Translations under genes and position numbers: made by a program
NCBI GenBank assembly: GCA_947624095.1
Contig: CANQIR010000030.1
Span: 1-10,363 of the forward strand
Origin: an uncultured Bacilli bacterium
GTDB lineage: Bacteria; Bacillota_I; Bacilli_A; RF39; UBA660
DNA: 10,363 bases
Direction of reading: 5' to 3'
Shown here: piece by piece, positions 1 through 9,045 of the stretch
How the letters are laid out: each line of letters starts with the position of its first letter
Numbering within the stretch: position 1 is the first letter of the stretch
The notes under the pieces: model-generated
The model's database searches: none
Seen by the model: the letters and a program-made list of their open reading frames with translations, nothing else
What the model was told of the DNA's origin: nothing

Positions 1-2
1 AA

Positions 3-491
3 GAAGAAACTTTTACCGGAGTAAACGGTACTACTGCTTATCATATTATTAAAGCAGCTCAACAATATGGCTTCGATAGCATCGGATTAAAAGTAGAAAA
101 TTTAAACGACCCAAGAATCCTCTTACCAGCCATCGCTCACGTCCATTTAGCTAATTCCTTAGATCATTTTGTTGTTATCTATGCAATTAACAAAAATACC
201 GTAACTCTAATGGACCCAAGTTGCGGTAAAAAAGTTATCAGTCTCGATGAGTTTTTAAGTATGTGGACCAATGTCATTATTAACTTTACCCCCAAAACTC
301 CAATCTTAAAGTTAAAACAGACGCGTCCCTTAAAATCTCTCATTCAAAATCTAATTAACGACAACAAAAAAATCTTTCTTCATTTGTTACTAGGTAGTAT
401 TTCACTATCCGTTGTTTCCATTATTGCTAATTACTTCTATGAAGTAGGTATGAAAGCTATTGAAAAACGTAGTGAAATCCTCCTATATTAA
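3..491 (+). CDS. C39 peptidase/bacteriocin ABC exporter, N-terminal half (5' truncated, ends at an in-frame stop)
   Basis: The reading frame is open from the left edge (first full codon at 3), so the true start and the catalytic Cys lie outside the window. The visible part is the second half of a peptidase C39 domain. The sequence LDHFVV supplies the catalytic His (165-167) and MDPS the Asp (213-215). A linker and a first membrane helix (IFLHLLLGSISLSVVS) follow. Proteins of this family cut double-glycine leaders on the cytoplasmic side and export the mature peptide. The frame stops at TAA 489-491, but the same frame continues without a gap into the rest of the membrane domain and the ATPase. 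This is therefore one half of an interrupted gene and not a free-standing peptidase. The two GG-leader peptide genes downstream fit as its substrates. The family call is firm; whether a working protein is made is doubtful. Confidence 0.85.
   Translation, partial: EETFTGVNGTTAYHIIKAAQQYGFDSIGLKVENLNDPRILLPAIAHVHLANSLDHFVVIYAINKNTVTLMDPSCGKKVISLDEFLSMWTNVIINFTPKTPILKLKQTRPLKSLIQNLINDNKKIFLHLLLGSISLSVVSIIANYFYEVGMKAIEKRSEILLY
489..491 (+). other. In-frame TAA interrupting the exporter gene
   Basis: Codons on both sides are in one frame. The product reads ...SEILLY, stop, IIFVLTIITILK..., and the run after the stop is the second membrane helix expected at this point in C39 exporters. No residue seems to be missing or added around the stop, so a single base change (for example from TTA, CAA or AAA) would restore one continuous protein. 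No Shine-Dalgarno sequence lies between the stop and the next possible start (TTG at 522). Confidence 0.85.
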
Positions 492-521
492 ATTATCTTT
501 GTTCTCACCATCATAACTATC

Positions 522-1955
522 TTGAAAGTCATATTTAATTCTTTAAGAGAATACTACCAGATTTACCTTCATAAAAATATTGACTTCAAAATTTATGATG
601 AATTTATTACTCATACCATAAATCTTCCTCTAAGCGTAGTTAAAAGTAGAACTAGCGGTGAAATCTTAAGTCGTCTTCAAGACTTAAAAGAAATCAAGTA
701 TTTAATCAGCGAAATTCTTATTTCTTTATTCATCGATGCTACCTTAGCTACCGTATCAGCATTTCTTCTTTATCGAAATAACGCCAAACTATTTTTTATT
801 CTTTGCTTAGTTTTGCTTATTTACTTCACCCTAAGTCTAATATTTACTAAAGCAACCTTCCAAAAAGCTTTAAAAAATATTGAAGAAGAAACCAATTTTA
901 ATGCTGATATCTTAGAGAAATTAGAAAATATCGAATCTATTAAAAATACTAATACCTCCGCTATTTTTCTAAAAGGTCTCAAAACTAGTATGGCAACCTA
1001 TTTAAGTGATAACTTCTTTTTTTCCAAGACTTACCTTTATCAAAACATTACCCAAAATACAATTAGTGAAGTTGGTTTATTTAGTCTAACAAGTTATGCC
1101 TTTATCTTAATCTTTCAAGGTAATTTAAATATTGCTTCATATCTTACCTTTAATGCTTTTATTGTTTACCTTCTTCAACCTATGAAAGATACCATTAATT
1201 TGTTGCCTAAATATAATTATATCAAAGCTTTACTAATTAAACTAAACGAATATCTAGCCCTTCATGAAGAAAATCTATTTACTTATGAAGAAAACTTTCA
1301 AAATGGCCTAATTGAATTTCAAAATATTAGTTATAGCTTTAATAATTATCATAACGTTCTAGATAATACCAACATTACTATTGACTCTGGTAGTAAAGTT
1401 TTCTTAAAAGGTCCAAGTGGTAGTGGTAAATCAACATTGTGTAAGTTATTATTTCGACACCTAAATCCTAATAATGGTAATATCTTAATTGGAGGGGTAA
1501 ATATCCAAGATTACCATTTAAATACTATTAGAGATAATATAACTTATGTATCGCAACACGAAGAACTCTTTAATGATACTCTACGTAATAATATCACTAC
1601 TTATCAAAGCTATAGTCTTGAAAAAATTAACCAAGTCATTCAAATATGTGAACTAAATCCAGTTGTTGAACATTTGCCATATCGTCTTGACTCTTTAATC
1701 ATTAAAGACGCCCAAAACCTTAGTGGTGGTGAAAAACAACGTTTAGTTCTTGCCCGTGCCCTAATTCAAGATAAACCTATATTGATTTTAGATGAAGCTT
1801 TAAGTGAAGTAAGCTTCAGTCAAGAAAAGTCGATTATTCAGCGTATTCAAGATGCTTATCCAAGCAAAACAATAATTTATGTTAGTCACAAAAACGTCTC
1901 AAACCTATTTGAAAAAACAATATCTATTGGAGGAACAAATGAGTGTAAATGCTAA
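522..1955 (+). CDS. Bacteriocin ABC exporter, C-terminal half: membrane domain and ATPase
   Basis: This continues the C39 exporter in the same frame after the TAA at 489-491. Residues are counted from TTG 522, the first start-like codon; it has no ribosome binding site, and coding similarity extends back to 492. Residues 1-240 are the rest of the ABC membrane domain, with helices near 65-85, 88-109 and 185-220. The nucleotide-binding domain has Walker A GPSGSGKST (297-305), Q-loop SQ (344-345), signature LSGGEKQ (400-406), Walker B ILILDEA (420-426) with catalytic Glu 425, and switch His 456. The D-loop reads SEVS, where SALD is usual. ATP hydrolysis would drive export of the leader-cleaved peptides. 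Its last 17 bases overlap the next gene. Alone, this half lacks the peptidase and first helix, so function would need readthrough or reinitiation. Confidence 0.8.
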   Translation: MKVIFNSLREYYQIYLHKNIDFKIYDEFITHTINLPLSVVKSRTSGEILSRLQDLKEIKYLISEILISLFIDATLATVSAFLLYRNNAKLFFILCLVLLIYFTLSLIFTKATFQKALKNIEEETNFNADILEKLENIESIKNTNTSAIFLKGLKTSMATYLSDNFFFSKTYLYQNITQNTISEVGLFSLTSYAFILIFQGNLNIASYLTFNAFIVYLLQPMKDTINLLPKYNYIKALLIKLNEYLALHEENLFTYEENFQNGLIEFQNISYSFNNYHNVLDNTNITIDSGSKVFLKGPSGSGKSTLCKLLFRHLNPNNGNILIGGVNIQDYHLNTIRDNITYVSQHEELFNDTLRNNITTYQSYSLEKINQVIQICELNPVVEHLPYRLDSLIIKDAQNLSGGEKQRLVLARALIQDKPILILDEALSEVSFSQEKSIIQRIQDAYPSKTIIYVSHKNVSNLFEKTISIGGTNECKC

Positions 1956-2346
1956 ATTCTTACAACCTAAACCAATAATCTATTTCCCAATGCTTATCTT
2001 TATTGGTTGTCTTATTTATATGCTCACCTTCAAAACTCACAATTATTACCAAACTAAGACCCTAGTTTCTTGTCAAAATGAATGTCAGTTCGATATTAAT
2101 TTCCTCGATTTACAGAATACGCCTAAAATAAATTACCTTATAATTGATAATCAAAAGTACTCCACACCAAACATAACTTTTGCCAAACCAATTTATAACG
2201 AACAGTATATGGCTATGACCCAAGCTGCCCATATAACTTTAGATCTCGATGAATCTTATAATAATCAATATACTACGGTTACCATTGTCGCTGATGAGCA
2301 AAGAATAATCCAAAAAATCTTTAAAATTTTAAAAATATTTCAATGA
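1939..2346 (+). CDS. Small one-pass membrane protein, probable minimal exporter accessory factor
   Basis: The start is ATG 1939 because GGAGGA (1929-1934) sits four bases before it; an upstream in-frame ATG at 1879 has no such site and lies deep in the exporter gene. The 135-residue product has a short cytoplasmic N terminus, one membrane helix (about 12-30, IIYFPMLIFIGCLIYML) and an outside domain of about 100 residues with two Cys (45 and 49). The C terminus (YTTVTIV followed by a basic helix) recalls the end of HlyD-type membrane-fusion proteins. Position between an exporter and its peptides is where the HlyD-like accessory gene usually lies, but those proteins are normally 400 or more residues with a long coiled coil, which is absent here. 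The accessory role is inferred from position and topology; an immunity function is the main alternative. Confidence 0.55.
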   Translation: MSVNAKFLQPKPIIYFPMLIFIGCLIYMLTFKTHNYYQTKTLVSCQNECQFDINFLDLQNTPKINYLIIDNQKYSTPNITFAKPIYNEQYMAMTQAAHITLDLDESYNNQYTTVTIVADEQRIIQKIFKILKIFQ

Positions 2347-2357
2347 AAGGAGCAAAT

Positions 2358-2501
2358 ATGAGCCAATTAAGTAGTAATGAATTACTAAATATAACAGGAG
2401 GAGGTATCGGTAAAGGCATAGCTTTAGGTCTTGTTGCTTTTGGCATCCTTGTCATCGGTATTATCGATGGTTATCTTCGTCCTTCGGCTTGTAATAAATA
2501 A
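2358..2501 (+). CDS. Class II bacteriocin precursor, peptide A (double-glycine leader)
   Basis: This short gene encodes 47 residues. AAAGGAG (2346-2352) lies five bases before ATG 2358. Residues 1-15 (MSQLSSNELLNITGG) are a textbook double-glycine leader of the LSxxELxxIxGG type, cut after Gly15 by C39 exporters. The predicted mature peptide has 32 residues: a glycine-rich hydrophobic helix with overlapping GxxxG spacing (GIGKG, GIALG, GIIDG), then a polar tail RPSACNK with one Cys. GxxxG-bearing helices are typical of two-peptide (class IIb) bacteriocins, in which they pack against a partner in the target membrane. The gene lies 11 bases after the accessory gene and 2 bases before a second GG-leader gene, so it is almost certainly in one transcript with both. 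It could instead be a signalling peptide, but the long hydrophobic mature part favours a membrane-active role. Confidence 0.88.
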   Translation: MSQLSSNELLNITGGGIGKGIALGLVAFGILVIGIIDGYLRPSACNK

Positions 2502-2503
2502 TT

Positions 2504-2668
2504 ATGGAATTAAAAAATAATGATTTAATCCTAGTTCAAGGAGGGGCCTTTGCCTTTGAATCACCAATGATTAATGCAATTTGTAATGGCATCGAAACCA
2601 TCTTTAATTTAGGCAGAAGTATTGGCAGTTCACTAAGAAGAATCTTTTCTAAGAACCTATGCTTTTAG
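2504..2668 (+). CDS. Class II bacteriocin precursor, peptide B (double-glycine leader)
   Basis: This short gene encodes 54 residues. ATG 2504 follows the stop of peptide A by two bases and has no Shine-Dalgarno sequence, which suggests translational coupling and near 1:1 synthesis. Residues 1-14 (MELKNNDLILVQGG) form a shorter double-glycine leader. The predicted mature part has 40 residues: an amphipathic segment SPMINAICNGIETIF, then LGRSIGSSLRR with a GxxxG motif and a basic patch, and the end SKNLCF. Mature Cys 13 and Cys 38 could form a disulfide. A hydrophobic glycine-rich partner next to a cationic amphipathic one is the pattern of two-peptide bacteriocins. A strong terminator follows at once. 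The leader and pairing are seen in the sequence; activity is inferred. Confidence 0.85.
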   Translation: MELKNNDLILVQGGAFAFESPMINAICNGIETIFNLGRSIGSSLRRIFSKNLCF

Positions 2669-2672
2669 TAGT

Positions 2673-2702
2673 AAAAAGAAAGCCTTGTGCTTTCTTTTTC
2701 TA
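2673..2702 (+). terminator. Rho-independent terminator of the bacteriocin operon
   Basis: AAAAAGAAAGC (2673-2683) pairs perfectly with GCTTTCTTTTT (2689-2699) around a five-base loop, an 11-bp stem whose 3' arm ends in a T run. It lies four bases after the stop of peptide B. Confidence 0.88.
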
Positions 2703-2731
2703 TTGAGAAATTTCCCACAATAAGCTATACT
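2703..2731 (+). promoter_or_regulatory. Sigma-A-type promoter of the pilin-like gene
   Basis: TTGAGA (2703-2708) and TATACT (2726-2731) are separated by 17 bases, directly after the bacteriocin terminator and 19 bases before the next ATG. AGGTGA (2741-2746) serves as ribosome binding site. Confidence 0.75.
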
Positions 2732-2750
2732 AATCATAGTAGGTGATAAT

Positions 2751-3491
2751 ATGAACAAGCAAAAAGGCTTTATCTCGATGTCTGTAATCTATTCTTTCTT
2801 TTTGATTTTTATAACTGTCTCTGCTATTATCATTGCTAATTATACTCATAACCGTTTACTTATAAGAGAAACAAATAAAGACATTAAAAATGAATTATCT
2901 AATGCTGGTAATGCCAAACTAGCCACCTTTACCAATCTTTTATCGAATGGTAATATGGAAACTAGTTTAGCCTGGACTTTTTCCGATTCTTCTGCTAAAT
3001 TCAATAGCAAACTATATACTTCCAGTTCTCGTTCCATTGAATTAGCCAATCCCGCTTCTAATCGTGAAGTTCGAGTTAGTCAAAGTCTTATTACTAGAGT
3101 CGTCCCAGGCCATACCTATTATGTTCGATATATGATCTATGCTCCTGCAATTACTAGTGGTTCTAGCTCATCAGTTACCTTAAGAAATTCTTCTCGAACT
3201 TATACATTTTCTGGTTTAAGCTTATTAGGTAATCATCGTACTTGGCAAGTTCAAGGTACCACTTTAAATATTCCCTCTTCTGCTCCATCAACCGGTACAT
3301 GGCAATTAGTTTTTCAAGAAACTTCCAAAACTGGCGGACCAACTTATATAGATGATGTAGTCTTAATCGATTTGACGGCTGCCGTTGGTAATGATTTACC
3401 TACCACCACTTGGCTCAATAATAATATTACTTATTTTAATGGCACTACGATGTTTAACCGAACATATAGTTATGACCACCTAACGTCATAA
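2751..3491 (+). CDS. Pilin-like membrane-anchored protein with a jelly-roll-like ectodomain
   Basis: This 246-residue protein starts at ATG 2751 behind AGGTGA. The N terminus, MNKQKGFISMSVIYS, is short and basic, then Gly-Phe, then a hydrophobic helix (about 7-29), as in type IV prepilin-like proteins. The Glu expected at mature position 5 is Ser (residue 11), so classic cleavage and assembly are uncertain and it may simply be a membrane anchor. Residues 64-210 look like a carbohydrate-binding-type beta sandwich: NLLSNGNMET at the start, a conserved Trp, GHTYYVRYMIY in the middle and YIDDVVLIDLTA at the end. The tail LPTTTWLNNNITYFNG resembles what follows such modules in phage and surface proteins. 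The gene is alone between its own promoter and a terminator that overlaps its last codons. A surface or adhesion role is inferred. Confidence 0.65.
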   Translation: MNKQKGFISMSVIYSFFLIFITVSAIIIANYTHNRLLIRETNKDIKNELSNAGNAKLATFTNLLSNGNMETSLAWTFSDSSAKFNSKLYTSSSRSIELANPASNREVRVSQSLITRVVPGHTYYVRYMIYAPAITSGSSSSVTLRNSSRTYTFSGLSLLGNHRTWQVQGTTLNIPSSAPSTGTWQLVFQETSKTGGPTYIDDVVLIDLTAAVGNDLPTTTWLNNNITYFNGTTMFNRTYSYDHLTS

Positions 3492-3500
3492 CTATTTTTC
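3466..3500 (+). terminator. Terminator overlapping the end of the pilin-like gene
   Basis: ATAGTTATGAC (3466-3476) pairs perfectly with GTCATAACTAT (3485-3495) around an eight-base loop, followed by TTTTT (3495-3499). The stop codon (3489-3491) lies inside the 3' arm, so the last eight or so residues are encoded by the hairpin. Confidence 0.82.
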
Positions 3501-3513
3501 TTATCTAAATTAC

Positions 3514-3542
3514 TTGTCAAAGGCTTTTAGTAGTGTTATAAT
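3514..3542 (+). promoter_or_regulatory. Sigma-A-type promoter of rpsU-yqeY
   Basis: TTGTCA (3514-3519) and a perfect TATAAT (3537-3542) are 17 bases apart, 28 bases before the rpsU start. A strong site suits a ribosomal protein gene. The same two hexamers and spacing recur before the glycine T-box. Confidence 0.88.
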
Positions 3543-5662: not shown

Positions 5663-6292
5663 ATGTTTAGTAGAGCACTATATAGAACATTATCAGGAGC
5701 ATGGCCAATGGTTTTCATCTTTTGTATTATTCTCGTTACCGTTCGTATTTCATATTTAAGAATTAATCATCAAAAATTTAGTCTATTTAATGAAATATAT
5801 ACCCTGATATTTTTAATTTATATTTTATTATTATTTGAATTAGTAACTAATACTGAATCAGGCGGTTCTGGCTTAAACTTAATGCCATTCAAAGAAATAA
5901 CTCGTTATACATTTGGTTCACCTTTATTCATCTATAACGTTTTAGGTAATATTCTAGCCTTTGTACCATTTGGTTACTTTGTTTCTAGCTACGTCAAAGC
6001 TAAAAGAGTAGGGGAAATGACGATAATTACTCTAATTACTAGCTTAGCTATCGAATTAGTTCAATACCGTATTGGTCGAACTTTTGATATCGATGATATC
6101 ATCCTTAATGTTGCGGGTGGCATTATTGGTTTTCTTATCTATATTGCCATTACTGCTATTCAAAAGCATCTTCCATCCTTATTTAAAAGCGACTTATTCT
6201 ATAATATATTAAGTATCATCGTCATCGTAATAATCATCGCCTACATTAGTCAATTTGTTGGCTTTGGTTGGTTAAATGGAGTGATAAAATGA
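5663..6292 (+). CDS. VanZ-family membrane protein
   Basis: This 209-residue protein starts at ATG 5663 with a GGGG-type ribosome site. It has five or six membrane helices (near 15-33, 44-62, 93-110, 119-137, 148-168, 180-198). The VanZ core is clear: NVLGNILAFVPFGYF, then SLAIELVQYRIGRTFDIDD, then ILNVAGGIIGF. VanZ proteins are known from low-level teicoplanin resistance loci, but most chromosomal members have no assigned role; an envelope role is the safest guess. It occupies the place where Bacillus has phoH and pgpH between yqfD and ybeY. Its stop codon overlaps the ybeY start (ATGA), so the two are translationally coupled. Confidence 0.88.
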   Translation: MFSRALYRTLSGAWPMVFIFCIILVTVRISYLRINHQKFSLFNEIYTLIFLIYILLLFELVTNTESGGSGLNLMPFKEITRYTFGSPLFIYNVLGNILAFVPFGYFVSSYVKAKRVGEMTIITLITSLAIELVQYRIGRTFDIDDIILNVAGGIIGFLIYIAITAIQKHLPSLFKSDLFYNILSIIVIVIIIAYISQFVGFGWLNGVIK

Positions 6293-6732
6293 ACGAATAC
6301 ACAATAATTGATAATAATTTATATACTAATTATACTTATCTATACGATGTACTAGATTACACATTAGAACACGAGAAAGTTAAAAATGCAATCTTCTCCG
6401 TCATCTTTGTTGATGAAGACCAAATACAAGAAATAAACCGTGAATACCGTCACATCGATCGAGTAACCGATGTTATTTCATTTGCATTTGAAGATAATGA
6501 AGATATGGTGTATAATGAACAATGTAGAGTTTTAGGAGATATTTATGTTTGTATTCCTAAAATGATTAGTCAAGCTAAAGAATATGCCCATAGTGAAGAA
6601 AGAGAATTATCCTTTCTTTGTGTTCATGGTTTATTGCATTTACTAGGCTATGACCATATGAATAAAGAAGAAGAGAAAGTTATGTTTGCATTACAGGAGT
6701 TGATTTTAGATGCCAAAAATATCACGCGATGA
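6289..6732 (+). CDS. ybeY: Endoribonuclease YbeY (16S rRNA maturation)
   Basis: The chosen start is ATG 6289, which overlaps the vanZ-like stop as ATGA and has GGAG (6278-6281) upstream; a TTG at 6268 in the same frame would lengthen the protein by seven non-conserved residues. The product has 147 residues, normal for the family. The zinc site HGLLHLLGYDH (113-123, His 113, 117 and 123) is complete, and the conserved TDVISFAF (60-67) and LGDIYVC (82-88) segments are present. YbeY trims the 3' end of 16S rRNA and takes part in ribosome quality control. The last 23 bases overlap dgkA. Confidence 0.96.
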   Translation: MNEYTIIDNNLYTNYTYLYDVLDYTLEHEKVKNAIFSVIFVDEDQIQEINREYRHIDRVTDVISFAFEDNEDMVYNEQCRVLGDIYVCIPKMISQAKEYAHSEERELSFLCVHGLLHLLGYDHMNKEEEKVMFALQELILDAKNITR

Positions 6733-7111
6733 AATAAAAGTAAGAGGGTTTAAAAGATTTGTTAAAAGTTTCGGCTATAGCATCGATGGTTTAAAATACG
6801 CTTATAAGTACGAACAAAGTATGTTAATTCATGTGATAGCTACTATATTTGCTATCATAATGGGTCTTATATGTCATATAAGCATTAGTGAGTGGGCTTT
6901 AATTGCCGTAGCTATAGGTATCGTTCTTGCTGCCGAATTAATTAATACTGCTATTGAAGCGGTTGTCGATTTAGTAACCTTAGAAATTCATCCTTTAGCA
7001 AAAATTGCCAAAGATTGTGGAAGCGCTGCCACCTTTGTCTTATCTATCGTTGCTGCCATCATCGGTTGTCTAGTTTATATTCCTCATCTTATTGAAATGT
7101 TAGGACTTTAA
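6710..7111 (+). CDS. dgkA: Diacylglycerol/undecaprenol kinase family protein
   Basis: This 133-residue integral membrane protein starts at ATG 6710, ten bases after GGAG (6696-6699), and overlaps the end of ybeY. The family signature is complete: ELINTAIEAVVDLV (76-89) with the catalytic Glu region, followed by KIAKDCGSAATFV (98-110). Three membrane helices are visible (about 37-57, 60-80, 108-128), behind a cytoplasmic amphipathic N terminus (GFKRFVKSFGYSIDGL). In Gram-positive bacteria this enzyme mainly phosphorylates undecaprenol, feeding the lipid carrier pool for wall synthesis. The Bacillus neighbour cdd is missing here, and era follows after three bases. Confidence 0.94.
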   Translation: MPKISRDEIKVRGFKRFVKSFGYSIDGLKYAYKYEQSMLIHVIATIFAIIMGLICHISISEWALIAVAIGIVLAAELINTAIEAVVDLVTLEIHPLAKIAKDCGSAATFVLSIVAAIIGCLVYIPHLIEMLGL

Positions 7112-8873: not shown

Positions 8874-8888
8874 AAATTAGTATATAAT
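8860..8888 (+). promoter_or_regulatory. Sigma-A-type promoter of the glycine T-box/glyS unit
   Basis: TTGTCA (8860-8865, inside the recO end) and TATAAT (8883-8888) are 17 bases apart, identical in hexamers and spacing to the rpsU promoter. The predicted transcript starts near 8895. Confidence 0.88.
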
Positions 8889-8894
8889 GTAGTA

Positions 8895-9017
8895 CATACA
8901 AGTGATGAAGAGCGTGGCAAACTCGGAGCTATATAAAAATAAAGAGTGATTTCGTCTAGAAATAAGTAGGGTGGAACCGTGCACTAGCACCCCTACAAAT
9001 TATTTCTAGACGTTTTT
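8895..9017 (+). promoter_or_regulatory. Compact glycine T-box riboswitch leader
   Basis: The T-box core AGGGTGGAACCGTGC (8968-8982) is a clear match. It folds as an antiterminator: GTAGGG (8966-8971) with CCCTAC (8991-8996), the seven-base bulge UGGAACC, then GUGC (8979-8982) with GCAC (8987-8990). UGGA in the bulge would pair with a tRNA ending UCCA, as tRNA-Gly does. A GGC triplet followed by A (8916-8918) is a candidate specifier. Uncharged tRNA-Gly is expected to favour readthrough into the synthetase gene. Only about 55-60 bases lie between the transcript start and the stem III position, so a full-size stem I of around 100 bases cannot fit. Confidence 0.85.
8953..9017 (+). terminator. 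Terminator hairpin of the T-box leader
   Basis: CGTCTAGAAATAA (8953-8965) pairs perfectly with TTATTTCTAGACG (9000-9012), 13 bp, followed by TTTTT (9013-9017). The arms enclose the whole T-box antiterminator element. The 5' arm can alternatively form a small hairpin, ATTTC with GAAAT (8949-8963). Confidence 0.85.
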
Positions 9018-9045
9018 AAATTTTAGCCAAAGAAGGAGAATATTT

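Follow-up and report, generated by a model that had tools for sequence, protein, structure and literature searches.

The closest described systems are the class IIb bacteriocins, such as lactococcin G, cerein 7B/lactobin A and carnobacteriocin XY, in which two adjacent small genes encode precursors with double-glycine (GG) leaders and lie next to a gene for a peptidase-containing ABC exporter (PCAT). In the excerpts of PMC8538875 and PMC6957408 considered here, the presence of GxxxG, or of a motif like it, in both mature peptides is given as a criterion for this class. Short immunity proteins are described as well, including BrcI (53 aa), EnkIaz (52 aa), AbpIM (55 aa) and CbnZ, which has 42 aa and one membrane segment and is encoded immediately downstream of the peptide genes, and the mechanism of class IIb immunity is called still a mystery in the same excerpt (PMC6957408). 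A further system, Cdz of Caulobacter crescentus, combines two small glycine-zipper proteins, a type I exporter and a small membrane immunity protein, according to the excerpted text of PMC5380434.

The locus analysed here shares with class IIb systems the two adjacent small genes, the GG leaders, the adjacent PCAT and the GxxxG motif of both mature peptides; many relatives also have, just downstream, a gene for a small membrane protein, as those systems do. It differs from them in that none of the curated class IIb families is clearly matched by its mature sequences, a C-terminal cysteine is fixed in both peptides, the pair is almost universal in one bacterial family, and the downstream gene, where found, resembles peptide 2. 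Cdz, compared here by its description, differs in that its proteins have 84-86 aa and are retained on the surface of the producer, an alphaproteobacterium (excerpt of PMC5380434). The class IIb-like architecture of the pair is well supported, and we consider it probable, with real room for doubt, that the pair is a vertically inherited, class IIb-like two-peptide bacteriocin of the family, which would act by killing. The system is new in being family-wide, in its paired cysteines and in the peptide 2-like third gene of many relatives.

The window, i.e., the whole stretch of 10,363 nucleotides that was analysed, is the entire contig C30 of a draft assembly (G000; 927 kb, 127 contigs, 77% complete). 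The family in which the pair is near-universal is, as we take it, GTDB family UBA660 of the order RF39. The two peptide genes are the last of an operon that runs from the PCAT exporter through an accessory protein to peptides 1 and 2, and the features are as follows.

3..491, + strand: N-terminal piece of the PCAT, with the C39 peptidase domain (Pfam PF03412, E=1.3e-20) and the start of the membrane domain
522..1955, + strand: C-terminal piece of the PCAT, with membrane and ATPase domains (Pfam PF00664, PF00005), from the first listed start after the stop
1939..2346, + strand: accessory protein, 135 aa, with one membrane helix, a small beta domain and a C-terminal helix
2358..2501, + strand: peptide 1 precursor, 47 aa (ATG at 2358, TAA at 2501), a leader and a 32-residue hydrophobic mature part
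2358..2402, + strand: peptide 1 leader, 15 residues, GG at residue 15
2504..2668, + strand: peptide 2 precursor, 54 aa (ATG at 2504, TAG at 2668), a leader and a 40-residue cationic mature part
2504..2545, + strand: peptide 2 leader, 14 residues, GG at residue 14
2664..2707, + strand: hairpin 3' of peptide 2, a probable transcription terminator by its fold energy

An earlier note on this DNA had proposed a new two-peptide bacteriocin encoded by two adjacent short genes. Both frames are present as described, with 2 bases between them, and the lack of protein conservation among relatives that the note had named as grounds for rejecting the proposal was examined; conservation was found, and the proposal is not refuted on that ground. 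The leaders of 15 and 14 residues could likewise be read in the window, and their GG is invariant or nearly so in relatives. By direct reading, AAAGGAG lies upstream of the peptide 1 ATG and no Shine-Dalgarno-like run was seen upstream of the peptide 2 start, in agreement with the statement that peptide 2 lacks its own ribosome site; the layout fits translational coupling, by which peptides 1 and 2 would be made together. The GxxxG spacing that had been pointed out is present, and indeed occurs in both mature parts, each of which combines G-x3-G (GRSIG in peptide 2) with a C-terminal cysteine. As for the terminator assigned after the pair, the hairpin at 2664-2707 is strong (-17.7 kcal/mol, z -5.6, folding against 200 shuffles), but the consensus terminator scan listed none there. 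The remark that such genes are easily missed by gene callers holds only in part: 386 relatives of peptide 2 and 166 of peptide 1 are already catalogued as proteins (E<=1e-3). That account left out the exporter and the in-frame stop codon that interrupts it, as well as the accessory gene, the family-wide presence, the paired cysteines and the third gene. Its central proposal of a two-peptide bacteriocin is favoured by the pairing, GG leaders, GxxxG motifs, coupling layout and adjacent PCAT, but the killing remains presumptive and signalling and housekeeping roles have to be weighed against it.

Every one of the 59 genomes in the first family set gave a C39 match, and in each exactly one match was strong (E<1e-20); six extra weak matches (E of at least 2.5e-6) were also recorded, four of them marked above the Pfam cut-off. 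The exporter was present in 56 of the 59 fetched loci and absent from two at contig ends (L087 and L142) and from L141, which carries peptide 2 of G016 away from the peptide 1 and exporter of that genome (L099). The C39 domain of the adjacent PCAT would cut the GG leaders during export of the mature peptides. In the window, the exporter is broken, a fact that counts against the bacteriocin reading: the N-terminal piece, truncated at its 5' side where the contig begins, runs into an in-frame TAA (489-491), and the second piece follows in the same frame. The latter gave its best NCBIfam match to TIGR01193, the model for a peptide cleavage/export ABC transporter (E=2.7e-77), with 260.9 bits against a cut-off of 523.85 set for the whole protein. 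Because of the in-frame stop, secretion in the species of the window is doubtful. That the system is decaying in this species, with the exporter a pseudogene and the peptides unsecreted, is a serious prospect to which we give a little less than even weight, and it is compatible with a bacteriocin at the level of the family. Decay is favoured by the finding of another, different in-frame TAA in the corresponding exporter region of the sister species G001 (L084, C28), with an intact copy of 685 aa in the congeneric G002, and by the lack of a second C39 match in the 77% complete G000 assembly. Nevertheless, the window peptides are intact and their pN is well below pS, though over a long divergence; in addition, the stop may be an error of the draft assembly, or the split may be tolerated, with two separately translated exporter pieces still assembling.

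The accessory protein was predicted by AlphaFold2 with a pLDDT of 87.6. Its fold gave no Foldseek match at E<=0.001, and a second structural comparison returned middling Z values, the best being 6.5 for viral DNA polymerases and 5.3 for HlyB/D. It weakly matches the NCBIfam family MAG1140 (NF045999; E=0.012, 15.7 bits, below the curated cut-off of 35), and 10 of 38 aligned members among its relatives match the same family at E<=0.1. The Mbov_0121 and MAG1140 families (NF045998 and NF045999), presumably a mycoplasma transporter and its partner, are alike in combining a PCAT with a small accessory-like protein, with weak profile matches to the proteins studied here. They differ in that the scores obtained here are far under the curated cut-offs, and in that the peptide 2 matches in groups f4 and f15 cover only model positions 1-35. 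Relatives of the accessory protein were detected in only 37 of 59 loci, which rules it out as an essential part of the system, and in several other loci the exporter and peptide 1 genes nearly abut. It is possibly a partner of the exporter, and would then be an optional one. No supported link between the accessory gene and the third gene was found on the exporter tree, where independent pairs are few.

Single-sequence queries against 98 relatives found peptide 1 in 54 of 59 same-family genomes (five matches being weak, E 0.07-0.18) and peptide 2 in 58 of 59, with peptide 2 also matching four times beyond the family (E 0.09-0.21). Since such searches recover the frames in 54 and 58 of the 59 genomes, the peptide frames are real and not due to chance. 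A profile search extended peptide 2 to 357 of 386 family genomes and 144 of 150 genera, mostly with one locus per genome, and to 242 of the 252 family genomes of good quality. In a class-wide sample of 395 genomes, the peptide 2 profile matched 51 of the 54 family members listed, and weakly matched 26 genomes outside the family (best E 5e-6). All except one of these outside matches (25 of 26) are confined to model positions 1-35, which span the leader and the start of the core; the remaining one (G703) spans positions 21-51 within a long frame. Similarly, in a search of 296 genomes, peptide 1 was found in 35 of the 38 family members listed, and its six matches outside the family all fall inside model positions 1-30. 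The relatives include MAGs from goat rectum and sheep rumen and those labelled 'Lapin', as well as Candidatus Faecisoma merdavium (one scan, 80 loci kept); NCBI places Candidatus Faecisoma in the phylum Mycoplasmatota. A plasmid or phage origin was dropped, as a distant DNA search with window positions 1-3540 gave no plasmid match and a tblastn search with peptide 2 of the relative L128 gave none in plasmids or phages. The family may have inherited the pair largely vertically. In the small-genome groups f4 and f15, perhaps mycoplasmas, frames mostly of 67-141 aa (two have 319 and 331) match positions 1-35 of the peptide 2 profile; these frames, e.g., G061:C1:578344-578430, are possibly other GG-leader cargo.

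Bacteriocin genes are usually patchy or scattered in distribution, strain-specific and fast evolving. The near-universal occurrence of this pair and its low dN/dS within the genus therefore count against the bacteriocin reading. Within the genus, pN of the peptides was 0.14-0.30 and pS 0.61-0.85, the latter near saturation, which makes the ratios rough; in unsaturated cases, dN/dS was 0.09-0.22, no higher than the 0.27 of the single YqeY comparison. An alternative is that the secreted pair has a housekeeping or self-directed role, such as envelope maintenance, kin lysis or colony behaviour, in which case the third protein would be a membrane partner rather than a source of immunity. The mostly single locus per genome, present almost everywhere, and a purifying selection that resembles that of a housekeeping gene fit this alternative, as do the presence of rpsU, co-oriented and less than 1 kb downstream, in 29 of 59 loci and the scarcity of the third gene in the 15-row group of the exporter tree that includes the window (12 without it, one with it and two unscored). 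We nonetheless find it unlikely, since two GG-leader GxxxG peptides with a PCAT and a small adjacent membrane gene make up the architecture of class IIb, and we know of no housekeeping system built from these parts. If the pair is a bacteriocin, its presence in 357 of 386 genomes would make it a core trait of a large, mostly uncultured family, and it could be tested why a weapon of this kind is so seldom lost from a lineage with small genomes.

After removal of duplicates, 142 distinct adjacent pairs of peptides 1 and 2 were obtained from 170 loci. In most loci, peptides 1 and 2 are encoded side by side, the exceptions noted being G016, L100, L221 (where they lie about 1.9 kb apart) and contig ends. 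In G016, peptide 1 and the exporter are found at L099, and peptide 2 with the third gene on another contig (L141), not near a contig end, so that the pair can be split. Conversely, a tandem duplication in L129 copied both peptide genes together, which supports their being a unit. Between peptides 1 and 2, L100 contains an inserted open frame at 6208-6922, methyltransferase-like by eye, and L253 (genus g106) contains at 1347-1466 an extra short GG-leader frame without cysteine.

GxxxG was found in 140 of the 142 distinct peptides 1 and in 141 of the 142 peptides 2. In alignment A6 (56 rows), G-x3-G, a proline and the C-terminal cysteine of peptide 1 are each kept at at least 90%, and in alignment A7 (58 rows), G-x3-G of peptide 2 is invariant and its C-terminal cysteine is kept at at least 90%. 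Both members of 137 of the 142 pairs have a cysteine within the last 14 residues, and exactly one cysteine occurs in 129 mature peptides 1 and 131 mature peptides 2 out of 142 each. Five pairs depart from this pattern: the cysteine is missing from both peptides in L254 and L262; it is also missing from both, as judged by eye, in the second pair of L129, where a mid-peptide cysteine was counted for peptide 1; in L240, peptide 1 is odd; and L257 probably reflects mispairing with an additional short GG frame like that of its genus-mate L253. The peptides tend to lose the C-terminal cysteine together (Fisher p 0.0018, ignoring kinship), and this joint loss suggests a disulfide between peptides 1 and 2. 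In the mechanism that we propose, the two hydrophobic helices would pair outside the cell via their GxxxG faces, would possibly be held together by a disulfide that links their C-terminal cysteines, and would insert as a pair into the membranes of competitor bacteria. The paired cysteines offer a concrete and inexpensive way to test for a covalent two-peptide bacteriocin.

Mature-only scans lost the class IIb matches and gave no support for homology between these peptides and the class IIb cores already described, which also counts against the bacteriocin reading. The newness claimed earlier has to be qualified in part, as 3 of the 120 listed peptide 1 relatives are named 'class IIb bacteriocin, lactobin A/cerein 7B family'; among the listed peptide 2 relatives, the names shown are 'hypothetical protein' and most rows are nameless. 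At full length and E<=0.01, 44 of 57 peptide 1 members matched the class IIb family TIGR03949, the window peptide scoring 19.5 bits, below the cut-off of 21.5. With mature parts only, none of 56 matched it at E<=0.1, bearing in mind that short queries lose power. The cerein 7B name therefore rests largely on the leader, and automatic names of this kind should be read with that warning. The same caution about the leader applies to the matches of full-length peptide 1 to Pfam Bacteriocin_IIc, a GG-leader family (23 of 57). The TIGR03949 matches of peptide 2 likewise fell from 11 of 58 at full length to 0 of 58 with mature parts, and membership of a curated family by full-length match was set aside after these control scans. 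The comparison of mature sequences with bacteriocin collections that the note had recommended, made here with curated families, yielded one weak lactococcin G-beta match (one peptide 1 of 56, E 0.019) and no clear class IIb family; one other mature peptide 1 of 56 matched the PncF immunity family (E 0.003). A PDB sequence search with mature peptide profiles returned nothing meaningful. Among the papers listed on two-peptide bacteriocins, their immunity proteins, intermolecular disulfides and RF39, no report of the pair was seen, and no paper turned up that links Faecisoma with bacteriocins or the immunity proteins of two-peptide bacteriocins with molecular mimicry; the IIBacFinder gut atlas may hold these peptides.

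Of 117 distinct loci that extend 200 bases or more beyond peptide 2, 75 carry a third small gene that overlaps the 3' end of peptide 2 or lies directly against it, its start lying 6-15 bases ahead of the last base of peptide 2 in 65 of the 75. It was picked by place, size and hydrophobicity alone, and encodes a hydrophobic protein of 34-62 aa without a GG leader, the N-terminal 18 residues of which have a mean net charge of +2.8. GxxxG occurs in 75 of 75 third proteins, compared with 16 of 989 other frames from these loci that are similar in size and hydrophobicity, and GxxxGxxx[RK] in 63 of 75 compared with 5 of the 989; 45 of 75 have a cysteine among the last 8 residues. Indeed, the third protein resembles the C-terminal half of peptide 2. 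In hhalign comparisons, 55 third proteins matched peptide 2 with probability 95.3 (E 2e-8) and mature peptide 2 alone with 95.5, whereas against peptide 1 the probability was 0.2, with no match. Twenty third proteins recruited by the peptide 2 profile were left out of this set as biased; three control sets were unaligned mixtures of frames and hence weak, the motif counts being the better control.

In 42 of the 117 loci, among them the window, no third gene was found, which rules it out as a universal immunity gene and leaves immunity unexplained in those loci, a further point against the bacteriocin reading. A search of the 59 genomes returned, for those without a third gene, peptide 2 itself or weak hits (E of at least 0.003) among the matches listed, which extend to about E 0.3. 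On the exporter tree (52 rows, 47 scored), a quick tree with some long branches, the presence of the third gene changes 8 times, compared with 16.0 in shuffles, none of 500 of which was as low. Since short class IIb immunity proteins are known, the natural guess is that the third protein is a candidate immunity protein in relatives. BrcI, EnkIaz, AbpIM and CbnZ, at 42-55 aa, are near it in size, and CbnZ also has one membrane segment and lies just downstream; the third protein differs in being recognisably related to peptide 2, and the likeness is drawn from published descriptions (PMC6957408, excerpt), not from sequence.

In many relatives, then, a non-secreted membrane protein that appears to copy the end of peptide 2, with GxxxG..R and often the cysteine, would probably protect the producer by occupying peptide 1 or a shared target. 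More specifically, and as a tentative proposal that we hold to be the less probable outcome, the system would be vertically inherited and would define the family, the two peptides would be disulfide-joined via their C-terminal cysteines, and the immunity protein would derive from a copy of peptide 2, serving as a membrane decoy that captures peptide 1. If this is true, the decoy keeps GxxxG..R and often the cysteine and traps peptide 1 in the producer membrane. The peptide 2-like third gene offers a possible explanation of class IIb immunity that can be put to the test.

Secreted GG-leader peptides might also be signals, and a pheromone system, in which a histidine kinase senses one peptide or both, as it does ComC or bacteriocin induction factors, was considered. 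PF14501, which we take to be the AgrC/ComD-type kinase domain, was matched in 51 of 59 family genomes (49 above the cut-off); peptide 1 members weakly match ComC and the EntF induction factor (1 of 57 each), and 1 of 58 peptide 2 members matches the pheromone VP1. Among the listed PF14501 matches, however, none lies within 5 kb of the peptide locus, the nearest being about 7 kb away in G014, and eight genomes, all with peptide 2, gave no match in this search for PF14501-type kinases (G000, G001, G007, G034, G036, G037, G056 and G057). Moreover, the fixed pairing and the GxxxG in each peptide would fit helix pairing better than recognition by a receptor. We judge a pheromone role improbable and retain the class IIb-like bacteriocin as the preferred reading.

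Elsewhere in the window, positions 8880-9045, upstream of glyS, look T-box leader-like by eye, with no Rfam match at the gathering threshold. Downstream of peptide 2 lie a pilin-like gene, rpsU and yqeY. The first of these (2751-3491) is pilin-like by eye, with a hydrophobic N-terminal segment after MNKQKGF, and has a weak CBM_4_9 match (E=0.009); pilin-like relatives are found between peptide 2 and rpsU in L084, L108 and L132, and after peptide 2 in L113.
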